This document shows positions 1 to 52,605 of a stretch of DNA of 64,000 nucleotides, piece by piece; the stretch's first letter is position 1, and every line of letters begins with the position of its first letter. The position numbers and the translations under genes were made by a program. The notes under the pieces are model-generated. The model was not told where the DNA came from, ran no database searches, and was given only the letters and a program-made list of their open reading frames with translations. Origin of the DNA: Protonemura montana. Taxonomy: Eukaryota; Arthropoda; Insecta; Plecoptera; Nemouridae. Location of the stretch: contig OX387608.1 of the NCBI GenBank assembly GCA_947568835.1, positions 14,422,001-14,486,000 of the forward strand. Reading direction: 5' to 3'.

Positions 1-354
1 CAATGATTGGGATTTTGTCAGTTTGGGGTTTTTGTTTTGGCAACTGGCAACGGCCATCACAAAAGTAACATACTTAATATGAGTATCTATGACATCTTTA
101 AAACCAGCTTTTGAACAGGAATTTTGTACGCGAGTGCCTTGGAAAGACGACGGCATGTATGACGTAAACCTGTCTATTGGGAGCTGAGATTTCAACAACA
201 GCACATCAATAAGAGCCACCTCTCAGGTCAGTAATCACCGCAATATACAATCCTAGAAGTCTTGCTCTCTATTACGTTCCAGAACAAACCCAATCCTATC
301 TGTTGACTAGGTGCCTAGGTGCTTGAGCCTTGTGTTTCTCATCACCATCGGCTT

Positions 355-1757
355 CTACTTCCACTTCCTTGAGAGACCTGCCGTGACGTCGAACAGACTT
401 GGGTTGGTGAACTCTCCACGCATGTCGAGGACGTAATACAGGTATGAGCCGTTCACCTTGATAGGTAGGTGTACCCGAGCTGCTTGCCGCGACTCCTGGC
501 AGCTCATCTGATGGTTGGAATGTGTTGTTTTAACAAAGTTAACATGGATGTCGGTAGATACAAGAGTGATCGCAAAGGAATCATCGAAAACGATTGCCAT
601 ACAGTACTAGAATTTTGAAAGAAAATGTTACTATGAAAGGGTTCAAAATTATATTAGAAGCTGATTTGTTGGATTTCCTTGTTAACGATTCTCAGCTTCT
701 TGAAGGTTGAAAAAAAATCATTATGAGTTCTGTAAATTATACAGTAGAAAGTAGAAAAAATCAGAAATACGTTTGGTCCAGATTGGAATTAAAAGACTTC
801 AATTAACTAGTAAAGGGAAGAACCATTAAGAATCAACTGTAGATCATAATAAACTGCAATCAGCTAGTTGCACAAGTAAACTTGTGAACACATTTAATAA
901 TTTTTTTTAGCGCAGCAAAGATTTTTAACTGCTGGAAGGGTTTTGGCATTCGAACCTGCGTGATTGGCACTGTTGTCATTCGGTTCTTCCCGAACGGGCC
1001 ATATGTTACAAGAGTAACACTCTCCCCTCCTTTCCGTAAAACTACAAACCGCACAGACTTGAGCGTGAAGGCCCAAGCTGATGCCAGGATTCCGTAGCCT
1101 GGAACAATAAGAAATTAAGAAGTTCAAGTACACCCAACAGTAAATTTGATAATAAAAAACTGTGGGTATTGAACAGTTGCTTATTTCAAAACTAGTTTAA
1201 ATTGTATTTTCTAAATATTCTATTAAATAATCTTTATCAAAATATTGGCCTTAGGTAGTTAGTACAGTTAACCCATTGAATGTGATTTAACACCTACCAA
1301 TGATAAAACACAGTAGTGCAATGCCATTTCTGTATTTGTTTTCTCCAAGGTTGATATTGCGCCACCACGGGCGTTCGTCATCATTTTGTTGCTCGATTGG
1401 CGTGTCTTTTAAAGAGGTGTATGCGAAATGGGAGAGATATATCCAGAACAAAAACTGACATACAGCAAAGATATTCAGCATTCGGTAGAAACCTGGGTTC
1501 TCATATCGGAACAGCACAACGTCTTTAACAATGTTTGTATTGACATTTAATGGTGAGCTGCTTAAAGCAGTTGAGAAAAGACGCGGCTGGCAGTAGAAAG
1601 TACTTGAAATATACTTGTTGAAGGGAATAAGAGATTGTTTAAGGAAGGGTTCTAGAAGTCCTGTGCTTAATTTGTACCTGCCGATGGCACTATGTGATGA
1701 GCTATGCGCAAATAACCGTTGAACTATACCACGAGTACATAAAGACTTAGAAAACAT
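355..1757 (-). CDS. TMEM223: Transmembrane protein 223 (TMEM223), three exons
   Basis: Three minus-strand exons read 1757-1298, 1098-956 and 507-355 (stop at 355). Intron boundaries are GT-AG and the phases agree (1, then 0), giving 251 residues. Exon 1 has a basic, Ser/Arg-rich N-terminus compatible with a mitochondrial targeting signal, then a block VVLFRYENPGFYRML and a first hydrophobic segment around LNIFAVCQFLFWIYLSHF. A second hydrophobic stretch spans the exon 1/2 junction (IALLCFIIGGYGILASAWAF). Exon 2 carries VRFVVLRKGGESVTLVTYGP, matching the family block before a conserved FG, and exon 3 ends with VHLPIKVNGSYLYYVLDMRG and a C-terminal LFD. Human TMEM223 is recalled as an inner-mitochondrial-membrane protein linked to cytochrome c oxidase assembly; that role is family knowledge. 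The ATG at 1757 is the only one that opens the full N-terminus. No clear AATAAA lies downstream. Confidence 0.87.
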
Positions 1758-2054
1758 GTTGATACACTTTATCAGAATAAATTTGAATATTTTTTGTAAG
1801 ACTATTATAAAAGTAAAGACGTGATCAAAATGCCGAGTGACTTAACCTAAAAGATGTCAGAACACGCACCTCCCATCAAACCTTACTCCCACCATAGCTT
1901 CCAGATACCCGAACGCCCTACAGCTGGTTGTGGCGAAACTCAAAACCAAATTTCTCACGAAACTTAAATGCTAATCATTTTTGCACCCCTTGCAGGCTGG
2001 AACTTCATGTTCCATGTAGTTACTATTATCGATCTTACTAAACATCGATCTACG

Positions 2055-3170
2055 CAGTGATGTATTGGTCAATGCACGCGGGTGTACGCAGTCCACCCAC
2101 TATTAATTTTATTTTTGGCCGTACCCCCACTTTAAACTTTTGAGGGAACGCAGGTGAACGCACGGGAAAGCAGTATTAAATTATGATTATTCGAAATATC
2201 CTGCACTTCTTTATTTTCAAGGCGAAAATATCCCAGTTAAGGGTTTTATTTCTAATAAACCACTTACATAAAAATAAACCTAGCAAGAATGCCACTGTTT
2301 GCGAACGTACTTAGAGTGGGTAGACTGGAATTATGTCGGCGTCGCGACTTGCAACAAAGGGGTTAGTTAGAACCATATTACTGTTATCACTTAGGGAAGT
2401 CGGTAGCCGCTTTCGCGCCGTCGCACGGCGGTGCAAGCTCTCAGAAGCAAGCCCGCTTCAAATAATAAGAATACGCAGGAAAGACAAAAATACAAACATT
2501 AACCAAAATGCCACATACGAGCCACACTGGACGAGTTAGTTCAATTCAAGATGCAGAAGAGGAAGCAAGTGGATTTGCATTCCCTTTGGGGCCTTGCTCC
2601 TCCTAAAAAACCAAAATTTGGTTTGGGAGAAGTTGAAGACACCACCAACGTCGCATCACGCAGCAGCAAGGAGCTTAATGAAAAAGAGTCATTGTGGAAA
2701 CTGATATAATCTCCTCAACGCGAAAGTACGCGCGTATCTATGGGTAGTTTCAACAAAAATTAAAACCAGTATCCGATTAAAATGATTGACTTTCTTTTAC
2801 CAAATTCCCGAATCCCCACCAAATTTAAAGACTGCAAGTTGCAACAATGTGGGAAGGTGTAGACATGAGAGGGCGGCATTAATTTAATTTTCTCAAAATC
2901 ATTACGTAATTAAAAATGCAGTTCTGACCATGTCATTCCAAGCCCAATTTCATCGTAAACTCGTAGATTGACTCCAAAAGAAACCTTAGAATAAAAATTC
3001 ACTTGGAGCTGCGCCCGAAGCCCCCTATTTTCCACTCTTTCGGTGCATTCGCCTTGGGTCTCCTCCTCCCCCTCCCCCCCCCCCCCCCACCCACCCACCC
3101 CGCCCGCCGACACAAAAAAAATGGGTCATTTTTGCGTACCCCCACTAAAAATTTTACGAATACATCACTG
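2055..3170. mobile_element. hAT-like non-autonomous DNA transposon with 8-bp TSD
   Basis: The element begins CAGTGATGTATT and ends with the exact reverse complement AATACATCACTG. Both ends are flanked by the same 8 bases, GATCTACG (2047-2054 and 3171-3178), the target-duplication length of hAT transposons. A second, subterminal match (GTACCCCCACT on the left around 2120, and again near the right end around 3137) strengthens the pairing. The interior is 1.1 kb, too short for a full transposase, but holds a short transposase-like ORF at 2551-2709 and a run of 15 C near the right end. The intact duplication suggests a fairly recent insertion, between TMEM223 and the tRNA-like cluster. Confidence 0.82.
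2551..2709 (+). pseudogene. Possible N-terminal remnant of a TTF/ZMYM-type hAT transposase
   Basis: A 52-codon ORF starts with an ATG and lies entirely inside the hAT-like element 2055-3170. It opens MQKRKQVDLHSLWGLAPPKK, a basic stretch followed by Gln-x-x-Leu-x-x-Leu-Trp and a Lys/Pro patch. That layout is common at the very start of TTF-type zinc-finger hAT transposases, and also resembles a PCNA-binding (PIP-like) box. The rest is a polar, acidic tail and no zinc-finger or catalytic region follows. The family assignment is an inference from the motif plus the location. It could instead be a chance ORF. Confidence 0.35.
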
Positions 3171-3178
3171 GATCTACG

Positions 3179-3950
3179 TCGACCCAAGACCAGCCTCTTT
3201 GCCCACTTTCCGTCCCTCAGGGAGAAAAGCAAGGTTTTGATCAACGTGATCGATTCTTCACATTGGAAAAAACACGCATAGTTAAATACGACAATATAAG
3301 TGTTGTTAGGAATTAAACAGTCGCAGGATGAGAAGCAAAATGTCACTGGGACAGATATCTTGGGAAACTGTCAGCTGTTCTTAAGCTTCTTCCAATCAAA
3401 AGCACCTGTCAACTGGAATGTAAAACTTATTTTGATTTTATTTATTGGACGTAGCTACCCAATATCTTCCAGGGCGGTCTGAAATCCACTTTGCGTTCTG
3501 TTTTGAACTTGAGATGGTTGTTGGTGTTGGATCGTGGCTTGGATTCGGATAAGAACTTTTGCACTGGTTTCGAGAAAACTCTTTGCAACTGGGTTTTTTA
3601 ATGCTATGGCAAGAACAACTAATTTTCCCGACGTTTACCAACAGTAATTGTTAGGGTAATTATCTAAGTAAAAGTAATTGTTTATATTTTTGTGGTTCTG
3701 TTTGTTATCAGAGAAATGTCAGGACTGCTTTCACTCTTGATAAAGTAAAAGGCATAAGTTAAAAAACTTTGAGAAAATTAGTAGTTCTTCACTTAGCATT
3801 CAAAAACTTAGTTGAAAGTCGTGTTTTCAAATGCGACTTTATAAAAACAAAATTTTGTTTACACAGTTCTTTGTATTCCAAAAACCGCTCACCGCTTATC
3901 CTGTCCGCGAAAAATAAAAAAAGTCCCTAGCCGCTTCCAAAACAGAGGTA
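3179..3950. other. Intergenic spacer, no gene seen
   Basis: Between the hAT-like element and the first tRNA-like element the sequence is AT-rich and single-copy within this window. Open frames here are short and low in complexity, and none resembles a known protein. Confidence 0.6.
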
Positions 3951-4028
3951 TCGGCCGGATTCAAACCCAGGAATAGGATTCCTGTTCCAGCTGTGAAGGT
4001 GGCACGTTACCATTGAGCCACGCTGCCC
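3951..4028 (-). repeat. tRNA-like element (SINE head or tRNA pseudogene)
   Basis: Read on the minus strand it has a box-A-like GTGGCTCAATGGTAACGTG near the 5' end and a box-B-like GGGTTTGAATCC about 50 nt later, the spacing of an RNA polymerase III internal promoter. A run of seven T follows downstream on the minus strand (A-run around 3914-3921), a plausible Pol III terminator. The arms do not fold into a clean cloverleaf, so a working tRNA is unlikely. Confidence 0.5.
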
Positions 4029-4167
4029 TGAAGTCAACAGGTTGGTGGAAGTCGTATAAAGGTACTTGATTTTGGACTTAGTTAAAAAAATCTAGAAAGT
4101 TTTACTTCGGATCGTCTATACCCATCCCTTCACTTGGATTATGTTCCAGGCTTCGATAAACAAAAGT

Positions 4168-4240
4168 AGGACGTGCCGGGAAGCGAACTGCGGACCCCAC
4201 GCAATGAAATTCACGACCATCCCACTGCGCTACGAGAACG
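4168..4240 (-). repeat. tRNA-like element
   Basis: On the minus strand it reads TCGTAGCGCAGTGGGATGG (box-A-like), and after about 30 nt GCAGTTCGCTTCCCGG (box-B-like T arm). It is followed by CTACTTTTGTTTATC, very close to the CTTTTTGTTTAT trailer of the tRNA-like modules in the 4.8-10.1 kb array, which links it to the same repeat lineage. No convincing acceptor stem is seen. Confidence 0.5.
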
Positions 4241-4837
4241 TAAACATTGTGACCGATTTGATATCAAGATGCAAATCTAGAAAACAAGATGTAAATAAAT
4301 CACTTCTAGCAGTAATATTTATATGTGAATCTTGATGGGTAGGCCACCCATCGTACAGGTGTGCGCTTGCGTCATGTCTACAATCCAGGCGTTGGGAGTC
4401 GAAGAACTCGGGGAATTCTCAAACGGAAATCAAGGAAAAAGTGGTAAGTTTCCATCGCAGGTTCAAACAGGGGTGTGCATTCAACTTACCTTGAAATTCT
4501 ACCCCTGTTAACACCCCTCGCGGGTCAAAATAAGTCTCTTGAATTTCCACTAAAAAAATATTGAAAAAATCAATGGACGTTTTTTACGTTTCTTACGTTT
4601 TTTCTTGATTTTTTTAAATTCGCCCATACTGTGGTCTGTGGGGTAGTTTGCACCCCCGAACCACCGTGGTGGTGGTGGTGGTGGTGATGATGATGACGGT
4701 TATGTTTGAACTGTTGATAGTCTTTGTAATGTCAAAACTATTGTTTGTCATTATATAAATCCATGTTTATTTATGTATTTGACCATGTAGTACTCTTATC
4801 TGTCTTGATTATCAATCACACATGAGGAATTTTGTTT
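4241..4837. other. Spacer with a GGT/GAT microsatellite
   Basis: This AT-rich spacer has no gene. It contains a trinucleotide tract at about 4666-4696 (GGT repeats passing into GAT repeats). The tandem tRNA-like array starts at its right end. Confidence 0.6.
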
Positions 4838-5039
4838 TCAGTTAATTTTCCAGGACGGGTTTTAGTTCCAGCCTGGCTACCATCGACGTCACAGGTCATG
4901 ATTTGAAAATTAAATTGATTTTCGATTGGTTATTTGTTCTCAGCTGATGATGACGTCAGCGAAGACTCGCGGCTGACAATTCGAGAAACGAATTGCAGCA
5001 TCCATTGGCTACAAATGTGTCCAATATCCATTCGCTCGA

Positions 5040-5113
5040 TGGCCAAGTTGGTAGGGTCGTTGCATTCCAATTAGGAAGTCCTCCGTTCGCATCCCGGATT
5101 CGGAGGACTTTTT
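5040..5113 (+). repeat. tRNA-like module, type 1 (array copy 1, diverged)
   Basis: TGGCCAAGTTGGTAGGGTCG serves as a box A and CCGTTCGCATCCCGG as a box B/T arm. A hairpin AGTCCTCCG/CGGAGGACT encloses the T loop, and T5 follows at 5109-5113. The same module recurs at 6673-6750, 8269-8345 and 9868-9945. Confidence 0.55.
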
Positions 5114-6672
5114 GTTTTGGAAAAATTTACTAACTGTGGTTTAGTAAGCGACTGTGTTGCTAAGGCATATTTGAAACGTAAGAATTATTGATATTAATAT
5201 CTTCGTTGGTTGCTAAGCAATAAACAGATCGGTTGCATTAGCTTCCTTACGTACTTATGCATGTATTACCGTCCCAAGATTACAATACGCCGTAGCCTTG
5301 TGGATAGCGAGCTCACGTGTCACTTGAGCGACTTGCGTTCGATACCCGGCCAGGCAGCCTTTTGGCTACGTCAAGCTCGAGTCGCTCTGGTGGCAAATCA
5401 TCGAACTAAGTTGCTGTGAGTGCCAGATTCAGCCGACAGTTTGCGCTGGGTCTCTTAACACGACTGCGCGTTCGGTGAAACCTTACAGATAAGAGTCATA
5501 TTTCAAATCTCAGTCGGTGTGGGCGTTTCCCTCCATGCAGCCGACGTCTGTGTGGTGGAGTGCAGTGATGTACTTCGCTGCTGACGTCAGCGGCAAGATT
5601 CGTATCACGGGTCAAAGGCCGAGACTCAAATGAGTCGGCCAATGCGACCAGTTCGAATCCCGCCCATTATTTGGACGCATGGTTGTGTTGAATGACAGTT
5701 CGTTCATCCATGGTGAAATATCCAGGGTGAATAAACTGAACAAGACTTGGAAAATATTTCCGATCTTGAGCATCCATATATGATGAAGTCTATTGATGCA
5801 TTCAAAATATATTTTGATTGAAAATCAGCGATGCAGTGGTCGAGAATTTGTACAGTTTCTCCGCTGCTGTCGTCACAGTTGAACAGTTTATTAATCCCAA
5901 ATAACCATCATATTGTATAGCGGCACGAGTGGTCGAGCGGTTAGGGTGGTCGAATACCAACAAGAAAGTACCGAGTTCGATCCGCGGCATAGCTAGACTT
6001 TTTGTTTATCAATCCACACCAACCTTTATTCTCCAGAGCAAAATTTGTTTTCAGAAAAAATTTCTAGGATGGGCGTAGTTCCAGCCTAGCTACCAGGTGG
6101 CGTCATCATCGCCGTTACAGATCGAGATTTCAATATTTTCGATTACACATTTTTCACTATTGACGATGACGTCAGCAAGCGGTGGATGCAGACCCTTCAG
6201 GTGGTACGTCAGATGTCAATGCATTTGACAATAACTGCATCTAAACGGATGTCAGATGCAGCAGACATTTCCACCGTTTCCTGCACTGAGTGTAAGAGTG
6301 TGAAACGTCCATCCAAGACTGGACCAAGCCTCCAGTGAGGAGTGGGAGTAGCTTTCAGCCACTCCAAGAAAAAGAGCTTCCATCGCTTGCCGAAATCCGA
6401 CGTGGATCAGCAAGACGACAGAGGCCGACTGGTGCAGGACCAGTAATTTGTTTACCCACTCGACCCCCTAGACATGTACCAAGTATCACCGAACCATCGC
6501 TAGTGTGTGCCTTTTTGATGCTAGCGCTACCTGTTGGGTATCAATCGAACTTGATCAATTAGTATTGGGTCGGTAACAGGATACTACTCGATTGGCTGTC
6601 GCAGGCTGGCATTGTCATGTACAAAGACCGTCATGTACCAATTAGTAGGCATGGGATATATAATTAGCTCGC

Positions 6673-6750
6673 TTGGTAGCCAAGTTGGTCAAGTCGTTGC
6701 TTCTGAACGCAGTGGATCTGGGTACGCATCCCAGTGCAGTGGCACTTTTT
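6673..6750 (+). repeat. tRNA-like module, type 1 (array copy 2)
   Basis: Box A is GTAGCCAAGTTGGTCAAGTC. The T arm CTGGGTACGCATCCCAG has a perfect 5-bp stem (CTGGG/CCCAG), and TTTTT follows at 6746-6750. It is likely a SINE-type remnant rather than a working tRNA because the anticodon arm does not pair well. Confidence 0.55.
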
Positions 6751-8268
6751 GGTTTTGGAAAAAATTACCAACCGTGATCCTATAAGCGACCTTGTTACTC
6801 AAACATATTTCAAATGTCAGAATTATTGATATGAATATCTTCCTTGGTATATCTATTTTCAGTACTAGTTCCTGTAATAGCGCCCACCATACGTAGACAT
6901 CTATAGCGTCGTGGTGAGCGTGCTTGCTTTCAACACGGGTGGCTTGCGTTCGATCCCAACTGGGTCTGTTTTTGTCTGCATCAAGCTCGATACACTCTGG
7001 TGGCAAATCATTGAACCAAGTTGTTGTGAGTGCCAGATTCTGCCGACAGGTTGCGCTGGGTCTCTTAACACGACTGCGCGTTCGGTGAAACCTTACAGAT
7101 AAGAGTCATATTTCAAATGTCAGTCTGTGTGGGCGTTTCCCTCCATGCAGCCGACGTCTGTGTGGTGGAGTGCAGTGATGTACTTCGCTGCTGACGTCAT
7201 CGGCATGATTCGTATCACGGGTCAAATGCCGGGACTCAAACGAGTCGGTCAATGCGACCAGTTCGAATCCCGCCCATTATTTGGACGCATGGTGGTGTTG
7301 AATGACAGTTCGTTCATCCATGGTGAAATATCCAGGGTGAATAAACTGAATAAGACTTGAAAATATTTCCGAACTTGAGCACCCATATATGATGAAGTCT
7401 ATTGATGCATTCAAAATATATTTTGATTGAAAATCAGCGATGCAGTGGTCGAGAATTTGTACAGTTTCTCCGCTGCTGTCGTCACAGTTGAACAGTTTAT
7501 TAATCCCAAATAACCATCATATTGTATAGCGGCTCGAGTGGTCGAGCGGTTAGGGTGGTCGTATACCAACAAGAAGGTACCGAGTTCGATCCACGGCACA
7601 GGAAGACTTTTTGTTTATCAATCCACACCAACCATTATTCTCTACAGCAAAATTTGTTTTCAGAAAATTTTCTAGGATGGATGTAGTTCCAGCCTGGCTA
7701 CCAGGTGGCGCCATCATCGACGTCACAGTTGGAGATTTGAAGATTTTCGATTACAAATTGTGCACAATGACGATGACGTCAGCAAGCGGTGGATGCAGAC
7801 GCCTCAGATGGTACGTCACATGTCAACGCAAGTGACAGAAACCGCATCTGAAGGGATGTCAGATGCAGCAGACATTTCCATCGATCCCTGCACTGAGTGC
7901 AAAGAGAGTGAAAAGTCCGTCCAAGACTGGACCCAGCCTCCAGCGAGGAGTGGGAGTAGCTTTCAGCCACTCCAAGAAAAAGGGCTTCCATCGCTTGCCA
8001 AAATCCGACGAGGATCAGCAAGACGACAGAGGCCGACTGGTGCTGGACCAGTAACTTATTTAACCACTCGACCCCCTAGACATGTACCAAGTATCACCGA
8101 ACCAGCGCTAGTGTGTGCCTTTTTGATGTGAGCGCTACCTGTTGGGTATCAAACGAACTTGATCAATTAGTATTGGGTCGGTAACAGGATACTACTCGAT
8201 TGGCTGTCACAGGCTGGCATTGTCATGTACCAATTAGTAGGCATGAAATACTTCTCAAATATTTCGCT

Positions 8269-8345
8269 TGGTGGCCAAGTTGGTAGAGTCGTTGCTTCTG
8301 ATCGCAGTGGGACTGGGTTCGCATACCAGTGCGGGGCCACTTTTT
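8269..8345 (+). repeat. tRNA-like module, type 1 (array copy 3)
   Basis: The 5' GTGGCC can pair with the 3' GGCCAC in acceptor-stem fashion. Box A GTGGCCAAGTTGGTAGAGTC and box B GGGTTCGCATACC are present, with T5 directly after the 3' arm (8341-8345). This is the copy in which an acceptor stem is easiest to draw. Confidence 0.55.
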
Positions 8346-9124
8346 GGTTTTGGAAAAAATTACCAAACGTGATCCTGTAAGCGACCTTGTTGCTCAGACA
8401 TATTTCAAATGTAAGAATTATTGATATGAATATCTTCCTTGGTATATCTATCTTCAGTACTAGTGCCTGTAATAGCGCCACTTATCTGCGGACAGCTATA
8501 GCGTCGTGGTGAGCGTGCTTGCATTCAACACGGGCGGCTTGCGTTCGATCCCCAACTGGGTCGCTTTTTGTCTGCATCAAGCTCGATACACTCTGGTGGC
8601 AAATCATTGAACTAAGTTGTTGTGAGTGCCAGATTCTGCCGACAGGTTGCGCTGGGTCTCTTAACACGACTGCGCGTTCGGTGAAATCTTACAGATAAGA
8701 GTCATATTTCAAATGTCAGTCTGTGTGGGCGTTTCCCTCCATGCAGCCGACGTCTGTGTGGTGGAGTGCAGTGATGTACTTCGCTGCTGACGTCAGCGGC
8801 AAGGTTCGTATCACGGGTCGAAGGCCGGGACTCAAATGAGTCGGCCATTGCGACCTGTTCGAGTCCCGTCCATTATTTGGACGCATGGTTGTGTTGAATG
8901 ACAGTTTGATCATCCACGGTGAAATATCCAGGGTGAATAAACTGAACAAGACTTGGAAAATATTTCCGATCTTGAGCATCCATATTTGATGAAGTCTTTT
9001 GATGCATTGAAAATATATTTTGATTGAAAATCGGCGATGCAGTGGTCGAGAATTTGTTCAGATTCTTCGCTGCTCTCGTCACAGTTGAACAGTTTATTAA
9101 TCTCAAAAAAACATCATATTGTAT

Positions 9125-9207
9125 AGCGGCTCGAGTGGTCGAGCGGCTAGACTGACTGACTGATATGGAGCAGGTCCCGAGTTCGAATCTCGGCGTCGTC
9201 TACTTTT
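9125..9207 (+). repeat. tRNA-like module, type 3 (Leu/Ser-like), best preserved T arm
   Basis: CGAGTGGTCGAGCGGCTAGA resembles the D-arm/box A of type II (Leu/Ser) tRNAs. The T arm CCGAGTTCGAATCTCGG is a perfect 5-bp stem with the canonical TTCGAAT loop. It is followed by CTACTTTTTG. Sister copies lie at about 5919-6005 and 7528-7614 with a different central section. The anticodon region is irregular (GACTGACTGACTG), so a decoding tRNA is unlikely. Confidence 0.55.
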
Positions 9208-10140
9208 TGTTTATACTTTTGTCGGCCACAATCATTTTACGATTTCTACGATTTATCTTTTTTTTTTCAAATAATTTTTCCAGTCCTGGTTAGTTCCAGC
9301 CTGGTTAACAGGTGGCGCCACCGTCGACGTCGCATCGTAGTTTGATTGCAAATTTGATTACAGCTGGTGATGACGTCAGCGTATCGCTCGCGGCGTCTTC
9401 TTCAAATGAAGGTGCTGTAGCCCCAGGCGCTACGGCACAATAACTGGACATGTGAAGTCAGTTGCACCTGGCCTTTTTCACCAATTCCTGCACTGAGTGC
9501 AAGGAGAGTGAAAAGTCCGTCCAAGACTGGACCCAGCCTCCAGCGATGGGTGGGAGTAGCAATCAGCCACTCCAAGAAAAAGAGCATCCATCGCTTGCCA
9601 AGATCCGACGTGGATCAGCAAGACGACAGAGGCCGACTGGTGCGGAACCAGTAACTTATTGACGCACTCGACCCCCTAGACATGTACCAAGTATCACCGA
9701 ACCAGCGCTAGAGTGTGCCTTTTCGATGTTAGCGCTACCTGTTGGGTATCAAACAAACTTGATCAATTAATATTGGGTCGGTAACAGGGTGCTACTCGAT
9801 CGGCTGTCACAGGCTGGCATTGTCACGTACTAATTTGTAGGCAACAAATGTTAGAGGTGAACATTGCATGGTGCCCGGGTTGGTAAAGTCGTCGCTACTG
9901 AACGCTGTGGGTCTGCGTTCGAATCCCGATGCAGGAGTGCTTTTTGGTTATGGAAAAATTAATAACCGTGGTCCTGTAAGCGACTAACTGTTGCTTAGAC
10001 ATAAATGTAATGTAAGAATTCATGAAATGAATATATCATGGGGCGTTTCCCTCCATGCAGCCGACGTCTGTGTGTGGAGTGCAGTGATGTACTTCGCTGC
10101 TGACGTCAGCGGCAAGATTCGTATCACCGGTCTTGTCGTA

Positions 10141-11851
10141 TGCGACCAGTTCTGCATCCTGACGCTGGGCACGACAGCGATCTTCACTCGCCGCCAAACG
10201 GACGTGACGACCACTGGCGAGAGTTTCATGACAACACTCTTAACAATCTTGGTAGGCGATTGTTTCTTAATTAAAAATAGTGTACCGAGCGGGAAACGAA
10301 CCCGGCCCCGTTTCTCCTCCGTTCCATTTTCTTGTATCTAAATATCTTGCACATTTTTGAAGATTCGCCTACACTTAATCTTCTGTGAATATCACATTTG
10401 TTCTGCATTTTGACACAATTGCAACCATATCGTAACTCACCAGAAAAAAAACATTTGTAAAATTGTGAATATAACTTCTTTATTTAAAGTCTTTTCCAAA
10501 ACTAGCAGAAAATTGTTAATCAATCTTACTCTCGTCAGCAACACGTATTTACACACAATAAAACGGTGACAAAAATATGATAAATAAGTCCATGTTCTGT
10601 TAGTTCCATACATGCTAGATACATTATGTTCATAAGGTAAAGGTTAGGAAGGTTAAGGCAATTCAAGGAGGTTTTCATTTGCGCAAATAAATGAAAACCA
10701 CAATTTTGTAAAAATGTTAGCTTGTAAGGTAATACGAATTTATTCTATTGTACATTTAAAGAACTATAACTACTTGGGAGAGGCACTTTGGAAAGGATAA
10801 TGGGGACTGGACCTCACTGCGAACGTCGACACATTCCTGCGAAGCATGTGGCTGCCCAGTCGCCTTTCAAACGATGCCAGAACACTTGTCACCCTTACAA
10901 AACTATCAGATATTAAACAGACGCGCGTGCCTCGGCCAGAATACTTGTCACCCTTATTGATGCCTAACAGATATATTATACAGATGGCTCGACGCACATG
11001 GCTAGAAGCCTGCGTGCATTATGTGCACCTCACAAGCTTTATTGCCCAGGGCTGTGCCAATAATTAAGACTGTGACAGATCGAAACCTTGTCACGTTTCT
11101 ATCATCTGTAAAAAATTCAAGAAGGTACCGCCCCTTCATTTCCGCGCAAATAAATGAAAACCAAATTTTTGTAAATGTTACTTTTTTTTTATCTAGGGCT
11201 GCGCCAAAATTAAAACTATCACCGAACGATAGCTTGTCACGTTTTTCATCATCTGTGAAAAATTAAATAAACCATCCCACTTCATTTCCGTGCAAATAAA
11301 GCAAGGCCAACTTTTTGCTAATTGTTAGCTATTTGCTGGGCAAAAAATAAAATTGTATAGTATGGCAGTTAAATAGCTGGTCTTGTCCTTTATCATCCCT
11401 GGAATAGTCATGGTGTACCACTGTACTTTTATTGTTAAAAAGTGAGGAATTCTGAATTTATGGCTTATGAGTTTTGTACGCTGTTTTGTGGATGCGATGT
11501 GTTGACTGGGTGACTGCAGATCGCGTTTTAGATTTTGCGAGCTTCATGTCCACTGGTCTGGGGTTAGGTTAGTGCAGTGGTGTGTCGTGTTTTGCAGCTC
11601 GTTTCAAGTTAAACTGACGAGTTTTCTAGAGGCTGATTAATATTAGCGAAAAAAATTCACTGAGAAGTGCCATTCAGGAAGATTTTGCTTCTGCTCTCCA
11701 CTCAATTGAATGTTGTATTCCGCCCGATAGACATGTGACGCACTTAGCATAATTACCATCGAGACCTAACCAACAAAATTACTTTGCACCTACCTCCCAC
11801 ACACCTTTTACTTATAACCTCTATATCAGGAAGCGAATTAATATTTGTGAC
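10141..11851. other. Spacer with degenerate short tandem repeats upstream of ELP6
   Basis: A unit of about 144 bp containing TTGTCACGTTT, CATCTGT and TTCATTTCC..GCAAATAAA is seen around 11060-11340. A related half-unit (TTCATTTGCGCAAATAAATG) lies near 10675. The rest is AT-rich. The last 300 bp presumably hold the ELP6 promoter, but no TATA or initiator motif stands out. Confidence 0.55.
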
Positions 11852-14271
11852 ATGGCAACGTTAGTTAACAATGCTGTAGGGTCGGAAATCTCTGGAAAAC
11901 TAATTTCTGTTGAAGAAATGCATGGCAGTGATGCCCATTTTGTTCTGAGCTGCGTAATGGCCCGTGAATGTCAAGCAATATGTCTTGTTGCTTTCCACAA
12001 TACTATAGGACATTACCTAAATGTTAGCGCCAAACTTGGAGTTCCACTGGCATCGCTTCGAGAACAAAGCCTTCTACAATTTATTGAGCCCCTTAAACAG
12101 CTTCATATCTCACGGTAAATACGACAAGAAAGTAACGCACCTACCTAAGTACCTACTACTTCTATAGATTAAGGAATCGTAAAAATTATACATGTAAGCT
12201 AATGAGAACTTACACTCAAGTCTTTTTCACTCATGTCATTTTCGACGTTTTCGTCATTTTCTTGAAGTTTTTTGTTTTGTTTGCTTACCCTACTGATAAC
12301 TGATGGGTCCACCACATTCTCTGATTGGTCATGGTCTAATTGGGGTTTTTGTTCTAATTTATTTTTCATTCAAAACAGGCAATAACATATTCATTGACTC
12401 TTGCTGCATTTCTTCTGTAAAATGTTGTACTATTGGAATTTATTTTCGAAATTCTACTTTGATTCTATCCGCCAAAAATATCTGTAGACTCTAAAATGTG
12501 TGTGCTATTTGAATTAATGTTTCAAATTGCATGGGGCTAAAGTATCTATCGACTTTGCCTAAGATTTGTATATTGCTTATTTTGTGGATAGAAAGAAACA
12601 AATATGCCTAATTTTACAGGCATAAGGATACAATACTAAAAGACCTCCTTGCTGACATCCAAGCAAATTTAAAGCAGCTCTCCAAGAAACCTGGCCACCT
12701 CCTTCTTGTCATTGATGACATCAGTGATTTACTTGACATTGGAATTTCTTCGCAAGATGTCTTGTCATTTCTGCAATACTGCAGCACAGACATGTCCGAC
12801 TTATTTCCCACTCTGTCAGTCATCATCTTGTCGCACATCATTGAAGAGGTGAGTTCGGGGTTATTTGTAGATCAACTGTAACCTGAAAATAAAAACCATA
12901 CTAACAGCACTCCAAATGCCCACCTAGTTCTTTGTTATTTATTTTATGTTGGCTTAGATAAGCATTGCTTTACTAGGTGTTACTTGTCGTGAACTGCCTT
13001 AGTTGTAGTGTTCCTAATAATAAAAAAGGACTAGAATATTAATTTCGATTTTTTACTTTTCGCAAAAATTCCAGGTATTGTGGAAACATAAAGGACAAGT
13101 GCAATTCTGAGAACTGAGAAAGACTGAGAAAGTCTGTCAGTCGACTGGAAAATCCTAATTTCAATTCTAACTGCTTCAATCCTGGTTGTCATTTTCAATG
13201 ACTTCTGGCAATTCTTAACCAAGACAGTCTTATTTTATTCCATGATGAACTGGCTTCTGTGTCTTTTTTTCTCAAAGGGATAGCCATCAAAATTAAAAAT
13301 AATAGTACCTACCACGTAACTTCTTCTTTGTGTTGTAGGACGAAGAAAGTCGGGTACTGGGCGCGTGCCTGGGTCACCTGGCAGACGTGCGTGTTGTTGT
13401 CCGTGGTTTGCCCACTGGCAGCAGCAAAGACGTCTCCGGTTCTATTCGTGTTGTCGACAACTCGACACGAGACGATCTCGGCCGCTGTGGACGCCAGGAC
13501 TTCTACCACTTCCAACTTCTCGATCGGAAGGTTCGTCTTGTGCTGTTTATATGGGTCTACCGAGCTGAGGCCCTGTGTAGAAAAGTGGTACGGTAAATAG
13601 ATTAATTGAACACAACGACAATGCTTCATAATTTTTTGTATATTTTTTTTAATTGACCGGCTTGTAGCACTGAGAGATGTAAGGAGAGAAAAGCATAGGT
13701 ATGGTGTGTGGTGTTTCTTGTACAGTGTTTATTTTTTGTATTTTGATGGGTCTGTAAAACTGGGGGAATGTAGTTTAGTTGGGAGGTTAGTTGTGTGTTT
13801 AATTATTCGACAAATGCCAATATAGGCAGGATTTCATTGTCTTGTATATCTTGCGTCAATGAATTTCCACCTTCGAAATGGAATGTCTTATAAATAGGTT
13901 TTATACCCAGATTTTTAAAATTATTTAACAGTAAAAATAATCTACTGGACATTTAGGTATATATAATGTACTAGGATATTGGTTGCAGGTATACGATATT
14001 ATGTGCCTTGTAAATTTCTCTTTCATAATTAGTAAAATAACGTTTGTCTGGTTTTTACGCTGATTTAATTTTGGCCAAAAAAACTACGTACAAAACAGAG
14101 ACTTGCTATTACTAACAAAACAATCAAACGTTAAAACGTTAAAAAAATGGGATTCAAAAGCCAAATATTCTTTATGCCAAGTTCTTTATCATCAACGACC
14201 CTGAAAACTGACATGTTTATGATTTTGTGTTACAGGTGGATTTGTTTGCACCTGGCAGTGTTCGTCTTTGA
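11852..14271 (+). CDS. ELP6: Elongator complex protein 6
   Basis: Four exons, 11852-12114, 12620-12848, 13339-13530 and 14236-14271, join in phase to 239 codons plus stop; human ELP6 is slightly longer (about 266). Exon 1 carries CLVAFHNTIGHYLNVSAKLG, aligning with the human block CFVALIQSFSHYSIVGQKLG. Exon 2 encodes HLLLVIDDISDLLDIGISSQ, the RecA-fold beta strand with paired Asp. Exon 3 has the arm GHLADVRVVVRGLPTGSSKD, and the last exon ends KVDLFAPGSVRL. ELP4-5-6 form a RecA-like hexameric ring that lets Elongator release tRNA during wobble-uridine modification; as expected for ELP6, no Walker A motif is visible. Splice sites are GT-AG; the third donor (GTTCGT) is weak. AATAAA at about 14930 could serve as the polyadenylation signal. 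Confidence 0.85.
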
Positions 14272-14626
14272 TGTAGACAGACCGAAAGAGAGTGGGTAAG
14301 TCTTGAAACTCACTCAGGTAAATGCATGACACCATTCGATTTGCAGATTTAGTCCCAGAGCTAATGTCAAACTTTCTGGCAATCAAATTAGCCTCTGATT
14401 GTGGTACCAGAGGTGACTACGCAATGGGGCTGCCGTTTTAAGAAACCTCTGCAATTAAATTATTACAACTCAAAATATCTTTAAGTGCAGGAACTCAAGC
14501 AAATTACATTCACAAATCCCTAGTTCTAGTCACACATCCTTAACATCTCATCAAATCTCATCTCCTAAATTAACTATAACTCTAAAAAAATAAGATCATC
14601 GATTACTTTTTTGTTTGTTTTTAGAG

Positions 14627-14755
14627 TGTGTCGAATTTCTGCAAGTCTTCGCCCGAGCGCTAGAAAAACTGTTTATGGAAGAGCTGAAGAAAAGAGCTGA
14701 CAAAATCATTGCACTTGGTTGTCAGCCCCAAGGCTGTTTTCTACGTAGCAACTAG
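14627..14755 (+). other. Orphan exon-like ORF downstream of ELP6
   Basis: After a T-rich tract and AG at 14625-14626, an open frame of 42 codons ends in TAG. It starts CVEFLQVFARALEKLFMEEL and is followed by a basic helix-like stretch KKRADKIIALGC. An amphipathic helix pattern is clear, but I do not recognise the family. Joined in phase 0 it could follow the third ELP6 exon as an alternative last exon, or belong to another gene, or be 3' UTR sequence. It has no ATG before codon 18, so it cannot stand alone at full length. Confidence 0.3.
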
Positions 14756-16540
14756 TTTGGTTCTGCCTTGATGCTCATGGCTGGTCAAAAACCTGGGCGA
14801 AGAGAATTATTGCAACTGATTCTTGGCAGGAGTGCACTTATTTAGGATAAACAGCTTGGGATTAATGACTGAAATCCTGAACAATCTTTTTTGCTGCCCA
14901 AGAATGGTCAACAGATGTAATGCTGATAATAAATGAGGTTCCAAGGATGAGAAATGTCTGTTGTTTTTATGGGCTGCGTTTTTTAAGCTTCTATGTTACG
15001 TAACTTTGATTTTAGTAGGTGCTGCAGCAACAAAGGTATTTTTAAAGTTGTTTCTTAACTCCTTACAGGAAATTTAAAACAGACTGTATGATCTTATATA
15101 AGACTCGTTAATGTTTTATCAGTCTTTTTAAAAAAACTAATATTTCATAGGGTTGTCAAACCGGGCATATTTGGCACTCTTTTTGTTTTTGTGAAAAAAG
15201 ATTGCAGTTCACCAATTTGTTAAAATGCACAGTTTTTAAAAACGACTGGAAATTTGAAAGTGTATTATTACTTCATATCATATTATTACTTCATTATCAT
15301 GAAATTCGTTAGTCAGTACTTCTCGCCATTTGGCGGTTCCAAGTTCTAACTTCTTTCCGGTGTCAGGAAAAGTAGGTCGCAGGTTCAAAGCCCGGTCGTG
15401 CAGCTTTCTGCTGCCCGAGCAAAACCTCCCAGTGTCTTCCAGACCTCCCAGTGTCAGGAAGAGTGGGTCGCAGATTCAAAGCAGGGCAAATAATGTTGGG
15501 AAAAGGTCCAGTCTAAAGCCTAAAGACATAACGTTCGCAGAGAAGTTAACGGGCGCAAATCATAAAATACCTTGTGGGAGTACTTGTCAATCATAAATTA
15601 CAGGCATGAATCACAGAAAGAGTTTAGTGGGAGTACGAGAATCGCGGTGCACTTTTCTGGAGAGCTTCACATAGCAACTAGATACATTTCAGAAACATTT
15701 CTTTGACATTTTCACCCATTTTTGCAACCTGAAACCAACCCAATTTTCTCAGATCTCCTATGGCTCAAGTTCAGACGGCTGCTGCGCATAAACAGTGCGA
15801 GATACAATTTTGGAAAAAAAAAAAAAGATGCTTTGCTGTTTGATGCTTTGATGCTTACCGTTTTTGATGTTTAAATTTGGCTAGGTTTAATTTTTGGTGT
15901 TGATTTGACATGAAACGACCCATCTGCGTTTTTTTTCCGAATGGTACTCGGTGTTACGAAAATTATAGAAGGGTACACTGCTCTAAGGCTATAAAAACGA
16001 CGAGGACCGAAATCGATCCAAGCGTGACCGCTGTCGATTGATAGAATCACAATTACTGCTGGGTCTACATAAGTGCAAGCAGGGACCACACAATGATACG
16101 TTACGGCAGCGCTGATCGCTGAATGGCAGAACAAAAGTGATTAAAAATACTTGACTCGAACTTGTTTGGTATTTATGTTACTAGCTAATTCTCCCCATGT
16201 GCTTCATCATCGGTTTTGATAAAAATTAATTGAGCTTTCATTGAACACAATGTTCGACACAGGTTTCGGGTAATGCTCAAATCAAGAGATGCAATTCTTA
16301 AGTCGGCTTAAACGTGGCCCAGCCATGTGAATCCCAATCTCTAGACCACTTCATTTCTGTTCTAAATTTCGCGAAATGGAAGATGAACGTGAAACCCTCG
16401 TAAGTATTTGAGACATTGAAGTTCTAGAAATTCATGCCCTTGGCTTTTAAGCGCCAGACACGCGCAGGTACTATACTCTGACAAAGCATAACGAAATCAA
16501 GCAAAAAAAGCGAAAATCAGTGGTTTTCAGCCAAAATCGG
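14756..16540. other. Intergenic spacer with a small duplication
   Basis: No gene is recognised. At 15355-15490 a segment with GTCAGGAARAGTRGGTCGCA and GGTTCAAAG is duplicated at about 100 bp spacing. The minus-strand ORF at 15871-16134 has no features I can match. Confidence 0.5.
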
Positions 16541-34500: not shown

Positions 34501-37500
34501 CGGGTTTACAGGGATTCAGATACGGATTACCATTTTAAGCAACGGTGGGCAAAGAGGGCTCTTCCTTGAGATAAGTGCGGCTCCCATTGGAAGTATTTGT
34601 TTTCATGTATCTTTTTCACGAATGTCTTACAATATCCTATGTCCATAACAATGACTTATAAGGTTTACATCTTAATCCCTGTGTATTATCCAAAACTCAT
34701 GGATTTTCTAAACAAAAATAACTCTGAACTCAAAACAAAATTGAGGCTGTGCTTCAAACTCTTTCTTCTGTACGCCTTTCAACACCACCACTGCTGTCGC
34801 GAAACGAATCAAAACGACTAAAATTCTAGAAACCCTTCACGAAAATGGCTTAGAGGGCCACTGGGGGCCCTCACTACACATTGTTGGACATGAGCCTCAA
34901 AACAGTGAACCCGACACTGGTAATTGTATAAATAGATCACTCATGGTTACAAAATGATTAAAACAATGAAGAGAATTTTTTTTTTTTATTTTTGGCTCAT
35001 GCTTTATCTGTAGAATCTTTTCAGCCGAAACTTTGGGAAGACCAGACATGCTCCTGGTCTGAAGTGCAGGAAATTTGAAACCCTATAATTCCAACTCTTA
35101 TCCAACCCGGTAAAGGGTCGGTAAGGGGCTAATTTTCAAATGAAAGTCGAACCCAGTCCATAAGAATCTTGGTAAAAAAGTCGTAATTTTGTACAGCAAA
35201 TTTTAATTCAATGCAGTAATTTATGCCAAATCACATTTATAAAAAATCTTTAAAATAAACCACCGAAAGTTTCACAGGATTTGATCGTTTAGTTCCATGC
35301 TCTTCGGATGATAAAACCCGTATGTCTGGAACGCTGAACTCACCGTGCATTGCAAAGTTACTCATTCACTTCGACCTAAAAACCAGCTTTGATGGACGAT
35401 CGAAGAGAACTGCATACCACATAACCCAATTCCCATCGTCGTCTCTTATCCCGACAATTTTCCCCCAGTTTGCCCTACAAACCATCAAACCATGAAACTA
35501 TCGGAAAACTCATCGGAAAAGCTTTCGACTCTGACACTCACGGCACGAAACTGTCACCGCCACAATTTTAAATAATTTCCGGAAATGGCTTGAATTTACA
35601 ATCAGCATTTTGCCACAAAAACGCTTCATGACGAGCACAGAATCAACTGAGTCCAAGTTGCTAAAGTCTAGCCCGTGAGAGAAGACACCAGCACAAGGAC
35701 TGTCCCCAGCATTGCTACAGTCTAGCCCGTGAGAGAAGATACCAGCACAAGAACTGCCCCCTGCATTGCTACAGTCTAGCCAGTGAGAGAAGACACCAGC
35801 ACAAGGACTGTCCCCAGCATTGCTACAGTCTAGCCCGTGAGAGAAGATACCAGCACAAGGACTGTCCCCAGCATTGCTACCAGCTCATAAATGTTATTTC
35901 AGTAATGATTTTAATGGCGAGCTTTAAAAATACTTAGCAAAATATATCACAAGATTGTTATAATTGATAGAAAAAATCTAAAAATAGTTTGACAAACAAA
36001 AGATCTTGGCACAAAAAAAGCATTAGAGCAAAATGAACATGGCAGAAATTAGCGGCGAAGTTTTGTAGTGATTTTTTCTAATGACAGTTGCATTGCAGTG
36101 ACAGTCATTGCAATACGACCGGTGGCGCTTCTGTCGGGAGAATTTGTTCACTCACCAAACGAAGTATCTATATATCACCACATCCCATGCAGACGACGGA
36201 TAGCGCAGCAGTGTAATTGAATTTGTGGTTGGTGTAACTAGCATCCATTCAGCCACTAACTCAATGATAGGGGCACCCGGGCGTCGAGGGGGGTCGGACC
36301 GGGGGATGGGGTGGGAGAGGTTGACAATAGACACAAATCAGGGACTATCAAATGCAGGGTCGATGTATCCCGGGCGCCGTCGAGCGGCAAATCGCTGGGG
36401 ACAAGTGGGTTCTGCGTTGCGTGCTCGGTTCGGTTTTTGACACTTTTTGGGACAGTCGGTTGGGAAATTGGGGAGCTTTTTTTGGTGGAGATTACGGTAA
36501 AGGGTTGGAGGCAAATGAATTAATTTTTTAGTCAGATATGGACCTCACTCTGTGCGCATGGGGAATCAAATTGTGATTTTGAAAAATGTGAAAATAATAT
36601 GCCATGTCAATTTAGTTGAGACGGGTGTTGTTTTAAATTTAAGCGTGCTGGAGATTTTGACTTCCTTATAATTCTACATCGACTGCGGCTTGTCATTGGT
36701 GCAAGATGATGAATTATGGTATTTTCTATCTAAAACCCAATCAATATTTGAAGCCAGCAAGAATTAACGTTGCAGAAATGAGTTACCAGCAAATTACTCA
36801 CCACTTTTACACATTTGCTAGCGGAATCTAATATCAAAAGAACGCAAAATAAAACTTACTAAGAAGAAATAACCACAACTGAACTGGAACCAGGAAGTGA
36901 AAACTCAGTCCCACGTTTCCGCTATCGACAAAAGTCCCGCGCCAGAATCGCACGAGAAAAACTCACCAAAGTTCAGCTCACGTCACGAAATGCACACAAA
37001 AAAACTCGGTCGCTTGCAACGACACATAAAATAAGCACTTTACACTTTCAAACCTGCCAAACTTATTTCCAAACTTTATCAAACTCTGCGTCACAACCTG
37101 GCAACGTGGAAGTTCGCACCAATGCATAAAGAGAAGCCACGTAAGAGGTGCATGGCTACATATCCCGAGGGAAGAAATACTCTAGACTCCCTGAAGCACA
37201 TTCCTAACACCCCTGCAGCTCATCGATGCCTATTAGCACGATATCTACGGTAGAGAAAGAGAGATAGAAACCAAGGCGAAGGTGCCGACCCCCAGACCCC
37301 ATCGGAGAGACGGAAATCCCAGCTTATCGTTGCAAAAAGAGCTTCATTCCTCAACATGGCTACGGTAAAACTCCTAATGGATTGTGTACACTCCCGTATC
37401 TGCAGCCGATAAAGAAGTGCCACTACACACACCACCCCGACCCCCCCTTAATGTGCCACTCAAACACAGCCGTCGATGACAGGTACACCCCCTGGCAAAA

Positions 37501-52017: not shown

Positions 52018-52605
52018 GTTTTGTGGCGTTTAACGACGTACAGTTTTGACAACGGGTCCTGTCACACTGGTCCAATGGCGTCGGTGAATGAGTGGACGAT
52101 GATGAACCTAACCTAGCCTAGAAGGCAGGAGGGAGAACCCGATGCTGACACGTAGCTAACTCTTGTCGAAGAGCACATAGGGAATCGCCGGCTTGATTTC
52201 CCTTCCGAAGGACGTTACAACGCGAACAACAGGATTCCTCCACAAATCCATGCTGTCGAGAGGTTGACAAGCAAGGCGAGTGAAGTTGCTGTACTAACTT
52301 GCATCCCTCCAACCTATCTCCCGAACAGAACTGGTCATGTGTATGATGGTCACTCATCCAATACCTGACTCAGCGCAGTGTTGCTATACTTTCATCCATC
52401 CAACCTCTCTCCCGAACAGAACTGGTCATGTGTATGATGGTCACCCATCTAATACCTGACCCAGCGCAGTGTTGCTTAACTTGCATCCCTCCAACCTCTC
52501 TCCCGAACAGAACTGGTCATGTGTATGATGGTCACCCATCCAATACCTGACCCAGCACAGTGGTGATCTCACGAGAACCGGTGTCAACAAGCAAAACCGT
52601 CCTGT
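52018..52605 (-). mobile_element. 5S-derived SINE, copy 8, with triplicated 5S promoter segment
   Basis: The body is as in other copies (TTTAACGACGTACAGTTTTG, ATGCTGTCGAGAGGTTGACA). The head segment CTCTCCCGAACAGAACTGGT plus CATGTGTATGATGGTCAC plus CATCCAATACCTGACYCAGC occurs three times, ending near 52380, 52472 and 52560, spaced by about 90 bp. Only the last is followed by the rest of the 5S part (GTGATCTCACGAGAACCGGT). Confidence 0.82.

Follow-up and report, generated by a model that had tools for sequence, protein, structure and literature searches.

Dispersed tandem arrays with Pol III-type modules, palindromes and CTCF-like words in the stonefly Protonemura montana: possible insulator-like macrosatellites

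Anatomy of the array

A tandem array was found in a 64,000-nucleotide stretch of the genome of the stonefly Protonemura montana (assembly GCA_947568835.1, contig OX387608.1). This stretch, hereafter 'the window', corresponds to C11:14422001-14486000 in the 258-Mb genome, and positions without a prefix refer to it. The array occupies about 4805-10132 on the plus strand and consists of 3.3 units of about 1.6 kb, the left-end unit being divergent and the right end truncated. Unit length and repeat number, both proposed in an initial annotation made from the sequence letters, were confirmed by self-comparison: at shifts of about 1.6 kb, 5032-8433 matches 6669-10034 with 85% identity. The same annotation had set the limits of the tandem array at 4838 and 10140. 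The tandem array stands; its limits are nearer 4805-10132, because the match with the window begins at 4802-4830 in 9 of the 22 other arrays compared, and stops at 10132 in 13 of them. For most of the remaining arrays, the match continues into shared flank blocks.

Units contain three unlike modules on the plus strand, designated 'A', 'B' and 'F', each with an A box and a B box as in promoters of RNA polymerase III (Pol III), plus two TGACGTCA palindromes. Module A is present at 5036-5114, 6673-6751, 8268-8346 and 9868-9946, and module F at 5916-6004, 7525-7613 and 9122-9209, all seven copies ending in T5-G. Module B lies at 5286-5364, where the terminator is T4-G, at 6897-6975 (box A at 6904, box B at 6947) and at 8492-8570 (box A at 8499, box B at 8542), the limits of these last two being drawn by eye. 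Modules A and B are mostly 79 nt long, while F measures 88-89 nt. The starts initially given for three tRNA-like types, 6673, 6899 and 7528, fit those found here (6673, 6897 and 7525). A fourth B box, which has no terminator, is carried by each full unit in the segment named D (at 7260 and equivalent places).

The palindromes are of two types, all exact matches to the word. Those of segment D lie at 5582-5589, 7192-7199, 8788-8795 and 10101-10108, the last in a 92-bp right-end piece; those of the stretch named G-H lie at 4951-4958, 6167-6174, 7774-7781 and 9371-9378. A CTCF-like word, AGGTGGCG, is present on the plus strand at 6095-6102, 7703-7710 and 9310-9317. Conservation across units delimits two further parts: segment C-D-E (7026-7500 in copy 2) and segment I (7886-8231 in copy 2). 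Within the former, segment D (7146-7345, plus strand) holds the palindrome inside a predicted stem, followed by the terminator-less B box. In segment I, a hairpin predicted on the minus strand (8034-7983) ends just before a T5 run (7981-7977).

A loose scan for A and B boxes over the whole window, using box weights, found 47 pairs compared to about 34 expected, which is not much above chance; the modules are distinguished only by spacing and T run combined. Of the 10 window modules, seven had their A and B boxes 43-44 nt apart and one had them 35 nt apart, the scan missing the other two. Over all arrays, where distances were counted from slightly different bases, the commonest spacing was 45 for module A (32 of 43) and 44 for module B (23 of 30).

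A family of small dispersed arrays

The initial annotation had proposed a genome search for the unit and its copy number, and the search revealed a sizeable family. A search with one unit, in which the best candidates were scored, returned 130 matches distributed over 23 arrays. With up to 3 mismatches allowed, a 29-mer from segment I occurs at 150 genome sites (81 on the plus strand, 69 on the minus strand), and a 29-mer of segment D at 180 (91 and 89 by strand); the reversed control gave 0 in both cases. Grouping by eye yields at least 49 arrays: 3 on C2, 5 on C3, 16 on C4, 4 on C5, 13 on C11, 1 on C12 and 7 on C13. This number is a lower bound, as other chromosomes may hold more. From one to nine units are listed per array. 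Thirteen of the listed arrays fall within C11:12.5-17.5 Mb, and 12 within C4:23.4-25.5 Mb.

For alignment, the window and 22 further arrays were sampled, 20 of the 23 providing the 38 complete anchored units on which the counts below are based; the other three (L019, L029 and L030) have no complete anchored unit and stand outside this set. Three complete units from two previously unused arrays, L036 and L037, served as a held-out set.

Boxes, terminators and the tRNA fold

Terminators proved to be nearly invariant. A T4 run is present at the expected place in 38 of 38 A modules, 37 of 38 F modules and 38 of 38 B modules, that is, in 113 of 114. A B-box core followed by T4 14-34 nt further on is retained in 34 (A), 36 (F) and 38 (B) of the 38 units, the actual distance being 21-28 nt. 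With this narrower distance, core and T run occur together in 108 of the 114 modules, compared to 15 of 2,280 random windows drawn from segments C-D-E and I. All nine held-out modules also keep the B core, with T4 at 22-24 nt.

The tRNA fold was then examined through the pairing of the acceptor and T stems, in an alignment with a few misplaced rows. T-stem pairing among distinct modules was 0.80 (A, n = 43), 0.72 (B, n = 30) and 0.68 (F, n = 46), compared to 0.80, 0.69 and 0.68 with shuffled partners; type B is slightly above its shuffles, 6 of 500 reaching its value. Acceptor pairing was 0.43 (A, n = 43) and 0.41 (B, n = 30), compared to 0.44 and 0.44 with shuffled partners, the value for F being dropped since its box A was misplaced. 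No tRNA was called by ARAGORN in the whole 64-kb window, and the Rfam tRNA model gave no match at E up to 10 in window 1-16000 or in six other arrays. A tRNA gene cluster was rejected on these grounds, clear covariation in the acceptor and T stems also being absent. Of the initial description of tRNA-like segments each ending in T5-G, the boxes and the T run hold, with T4-G in the first B copy, and the tRNA identity does not. As far as the aligned sequences tell, promoter and terminator are kept and the tRNA fold is not.

Palindromes and CTCF-like words

The eight perfect TGACGTCA sites announced in the initial annotation are indeed present in the array. The whole window has 12, compared to 0.82 expected, and 100 shuffles gave a maximum of 4. 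The segment D palindrome is intact in 37 of 38 units, which places it in the top 1.3% of 8-mers of that segment. In the G-H stretch, 45 TGACGTCA words are found in 29 of 38 units, compared to 0.10 expected (20 shuffles); pairs spaced by 81-83 bp occur there in 14 of 38 units, with a spacing of exactly 82 bp in ten of those. Units carry one (9 units), two (15), three (13) or four (1) palindromes. Free variation of these sites among copies had been named as a refuting observation: the segment D site is essentially fixed, while the G-H site is looser, being exact at the aligned place (7774-7781 in the window) in 19 of 38 units and present anywhere in G-H in 29.

AGGTGGCG is the consensus used for Drosophila CTCF in PMC5462476. 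It is found on the plus strand in 32 of 38 units, and on the minus strand in 1. The CTCF-like core AG[AG][TG]GGCGC is present in the G-H stretch of 31 of 38 units, compared to 0.05 expected in all of them together. In the held-out set, all three units have the segment D palindrome, two have AGGTGGCG, and two have a G-H palindrome pair 82 bp apart.

Divergence along the unit and around modules

Divergence was computed in 20-nt bins, on pairs of units at least 20% apart. In segments C-D-E and I, the difference is mostly 4-16%, isolated bins reaching 25%. Most bins of the G-H stretch lie at 36-62%, and those around the CTCF-like site at 20-22%. High values are also found in the bin upstream of each module: 62% for A, 50-57% for B and 36% for F. 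In the window, these hypervariable stretches lie on the plus strand at 8249-8263 (upstream of A, copy 3), 8477-8491 (B, copy 3) and 7517-7526 (F, copy 2).

A finer profile was obtained from 18 non-overlapping pairs of close units, in a fixed frame on box A (type A being one base off), and its main features are shared by the three module types. From -60 to -16, there are 0.03-0.09 substitutions per site. The three 5-nt bins from -15 to -1 reach 0.26, 0.23 and 0.14, module F being raised in the first two only. Inside the modules, values are 0.05-0.08 (0-29), 0.09-0.15 (30-44), 0.04-0.07 (45-59) and 0.09-0.13 (60-74), and from 75 on, at and past the T run, they fall to 0.01-0.04, the lowest of the profile. 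Apart from the boxes and the 5' part, then, divergence is elevated over the module, starting shortly before it and lasting until the T run. Sequences flanking tRNA genes are described as having raised mutation (PMC8113476), and the profile resembles what would be expected from mutation associated with Pol III transcription combined with selection on the boxes. Together with the conservation of the T runs, its shape leads us to infer that the modules are transcribed. No raised divergence is found just downstream of the T run, which argues against this explanation of the profile; diversifying selection may be an alternative cause of the leader divergence.

In a pooled test, the leader (167 of 810 sites) differs strongly from G-H minus its kept words (350 of 3,759), with the reservation that sites are not independent. 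Counted by pairs, divergence in the leader is above that of the remaining unit in 14 of 18 (sign test, P = 0.03). A set of 84 polarised leader changes displayed a weak strand asymmetry, which was not used as evidence. As a separate observation, two neighbouring units of array L012 (starting at 3007 and 4651 there) have 7 of their 28 aligned differences within about 9 nt upstream of module A; this cluster, aligned to window 8250-8257, looks more like a single block replacement than separate mutations.

Coding and RNA tests of the conserved segments

Protein coding was ruled out for the conserved segments: no frame is open across C-D-E or I in any of the 38 units, and the period-three unevenness is not significant (reached by 181 and 938 of 2,000 permutations). 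For segment D alone, no more than 5 of the 38 units have an open frame.

Consensus folding (25 units, compared to 25 column shuffles) gave z-scores of -2.7 to -5.8 in overlapping windows over segment D on the plus strand. For segment I, two minus-strand windows had -4.8 and -5.5. Scores of -3 to -5 also occur in a few windows elsewhere. The scores at 7625-7820 were discarded as artefacts, with energies near zero. Base changes lend little support to the folds: no pair of that in segment D is changed on both sides, and that in segment I has five two-sided cells in four pairs (8051-8037, 8028-7989, 8020-7996 and 8017-7999). A further short RNA gene is possible at the minus-strand hairpin predicted in segment I, because this hairpin ends just before the T5 run. 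At gathering score, Rfam gave no match in the array. Two sets of 7 and 8 weak Rfam matches (E up to 10), some in the array, such as a mir-598-like match at 7144-7210, are far below family scores and were taken as chance.

Flanks and neighbourhood

The flanks of the arrays are made of shared blocks whose order and orientation vary, and they hold further tRNA-like modules. Seven arrays have left flanks that match, in inverted orientation, the right flank of the window array (10151-10344). Modules of A/B-box type are found on the minus strand at 3967-4020 and 4189-4232, and a B box at 10302, also minus; the types of 4189 and 10302 recur beside other arrays.

An inverted pair of 325 bp (95% identity) surrounds array L018. 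L011, L020, L028 and, weakly, L029 (71 bp, 77%) lie between inverted flank repeats, which are partly minisatellites. In the few kb of flank covered, enclosing inverted repeats are seen at 5 of 23 arrays and not at that of the window. Nor are flanking duplications evident at its ends, where the initial annotation had suggested looking for them: the longest word common to 4790-4860 and 10121-10170 is 6 bp.

The array sits in gene-bearing DNA, judging from open reading frames predicted at 1287-1757 (minus, TMEM70/186/223 family), 39517-39897 (plus, pyridoxal-dependent decarboxylase) and 60048-60422 (plus, fumarylacetoacetate hydrolase-like, below cut-off). The only two Rfam matches of the window at gathering score, both outside the array, are 5S rRNA, at 49155-49273 and 56165-56285 (minus). 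Between them is a 91-bp tandem repeat (52296-52562) which by eye is like the 5S-like 91-bp repeats flanking the L028 array. Minisatellites of 54 bp are present at 35658-35880 and 40531-40854, about 5 kb apart, with units that by eye look like reverse complements of one another. At 55056-55130 (plus) stands a solitary A/B-box module, which has a T run and a tRNA-like distance between its boxes. Elsewhere in the genome, C4:5760925-5762262 is a nuclear-contig copy of mitochondrial COX1 with the same score as the C34 copy (455.5 bits), either a recent transfer or an assembly matter.

Interpretation

Our preferred interpretation, to which we give somewhat less than an even chance, is that the array is an architectural, insulator-like macrosatellite. 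Each unit would comprise three cassettes of Pol III promoter and terminator, descended from tRNA genes, that would bind TFIIIC and start terminated transcripts of about 75-90 nt. It would usually also have a CTCF-like site, and between one and four CREB/ATF palindromes, two or three being the most common numbers. With up to about nine repeats, a dense cluster of architectural factors would arise, a possible chromatin boundary or loop anchor, the RNAs themselves being probably by-products. Recruitment of the Pol III machinery and of architectural factors is favoured over a tRNA-like product because docking sites and terminators are kept and the fold is not. The anatomy of the unit, the size of the family and the parts kept or lost between copies are observed directly; binding by TFIIIC, CTCF and ATF/CREB, and a boundary function, are what we hypothesize. 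The initial annotation had already suggested a Pol III array or an insulator, and at the level of sequence this gains support from the B box, T run and TGACGTCA kept amid near-saturated parts, and from the CTCF-like word, which it had not mentioned.

Several points weigh against this interpretation. AGGTGGCG is lost from 6 of 38 units and from 1 of 3 held-out units, and the second palindrome, in G-H, is exact at its aligned place in only half of the units. Both words are short, so that other factors could bind them. The excess of leader divergence over G-H, found in 13 of 18 pairs, is not significant by the sign test (P = 0.10); in the held-out units, each compared to the nearest old unit, divergence in the leader is above that of the remaining unit in all three cases, and above that of G-H in only one. 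Insulator sites do not account for the best-conserved stretches of the unit, C-D-E and I, the latter of which may contain a structured RNA on the minus strand. Arrays also have rearranged flank blocks in common, as would be expected of a mobile element. In Drosophila, finally, TFIIIC was reported not to be directly associated with dCTCF (PMC4226948).

The flanks lead to a competing explanation, in which the array is the variable-copy interior of a larger multi-module mobile element that spreads and rearranges, its Pol III boxes and factor sites serving its own expression or an escape from silencing. We regard this as a serious competitor, though less probable than the architectural explanation: dispersal over at least 49 arrays, the recurrence of the same left and right flank blocks with extra tRNA-like modules, and the inverted repeats around L018 and four other arrays are what such an element would leave, while the lack of an open frame common to the units, the at most 6 bp shared at the window array ends, and the restriction of enclosing inverted repeats to 5 of 23 arrays speak against it. 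The T run right behind the B box would, moreover, stop a transcript of the type made by short interspersed elements (SINEs), and for the same reason the fusion of SINEs proposed initially is not supported. The architectural and mobile-element explanations may both be true. A naturally assembled boundary cassette that spreads, gathering TFIIIC, CTCF-like and ATF/CREB-like sites in a 1.6-kb unit, in clusters some 0.05-1 Mb apart along chromosome regions, and whose transcripts would have no tRNA role, is also conceivable, though less likely than not.

Alternatively, the modules could be a family of genes that encode small Pol III RNAs and are kept for the sequence of these RNAs, for example that of their 5' half, to which D and I would add structured RNAs. 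The low divergence of positions 0-29 relative to -15 to -1 and 30-44, the consensus folds of D and I (z to about -5) and the kept T runs would fit. Acceptor and T-stem pairing no better than that of shuffled partners, apart from the slight excess in the B-type T stem, the rarity of two-sided changes in I and their absence in D, and the lack of an Rfam match at gathering score in the array make it unlikely. Still less credible, and in our opinion very improbable, is a functionless ordinary satellite homogenised by gene conversion, in which uneven conversion would produce conserved and variable stretches. Tandem neighbours can be nearly identical, as are two L016 units that differ by 0.13%, and this is as such a satellite would have it; yet 8-bp words persist in a stretch where divergence between distant pairs is 36-62% for most 20-nt bins, the boxes and T runs of three unlike modules are conspicuous and are seen again in held-out arrays, and conversion tracts are not expected to single out boxes and terminators.

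If the architectural interpretation is true, these repeats would provide a natural, repeated test of two ideas: that chromosomes are organised by Pol III promoters without any need for the RNA made from them, and that boundary elements are spread by repeats. Within one species, at least 49 arrays differing in copy number and site content could then be compared, and the divergence profile would be a sequence-only sign of germ-line use of Pol III.

Comparison with known systems

SINEs derived from tRNA have A and B boxes inherited from the tRNA, with a body and tail behind this head. The modules described here resemble them in their boxes, and as such could pass for a Pol III head; however, the terminator directly behind the B box, 21-28 nt past its core in 108 of 114 modules, leaves no room for a body and 3' tail in one transcript, and the modules are organized in tandem arrays. 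Among macrosatellites, DXZ4 is one large X-linked array. DXZ4-type macrosatellites are tandem repeats to which the authors of PMC4041453 likened the human tRNA repeat discussed below.

The insulators formed by tRNA genes (tDNAs) and TFIIIC sites are a second point of comparison. At Drosophila domain borders, TFIIIC is described together with CTCF and other proteins, insulator strength scaling with occupancy (PMC4226948). In human K562 cells, ATF3, a CREB/ATF protein, was reported on 100% of multi-factor tDNAs, and CTCF on 40% (PMC7567086). CTCF is reported to be present in almost all arthropod transcriptomes examined. The P. montana units are similar in that TFIIIC-type sites stand beside CTCF-like and ATF/CREB-like words, a combination linked in those systems with domain borders and enhancer blocking (PMC4226948, PMC7567086). 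They differ in that known tDNA and TFIIIC insulators are single loci or tRNA genes, whereas in P. montana a repeated unit contains the whole combination, as known from its sequence.

The closest parallel is the human tRNA repeat at 1q23.3 (Darrow and Chadwick 2014, PMC4041453), whose human and mouse units are described as sharing tRNA genes and one 24-bp CTCF motif. There, as here, tandem units of variable copy number combine several Pol III promoters and terminators with a CTCF motif, which is conserved in contrast to most of the unit. In P. montana, the motif is present as AGGTGGCG in 32 of 38 units and 2 of 3 held-out units, and several type 2 Pol III promoters with terminators are, by sequence, found in each tandem unit (108 of 114 modules, 9 of 9 held-out). 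Intact tRNA genes were not detected by ARAGORN in the window or by Rfam in the stretches searched. According to PMC4041453, the 1q23.3 unit is GC-rich, measures 7.3 kb, contains five tRNA genes and occupies one locus, compared to 1.6 kb and at least 49 loci here, and CTCF binding was demonstrated there, whereas here we have the motif only. Unlike at 1q23.3, the cassettes are no longer tRNA-gene-like and TGACGTCA palindromes are present. We found no such repeat in the open-licence papers searched. Tandem Pol III genes accompanied by a CTCF site are, as a kind, already represented by the human repeat; what is new is its occurrence as many small dispersed arrays, the loss of tRNA coding and the built-in TGACGTCA.

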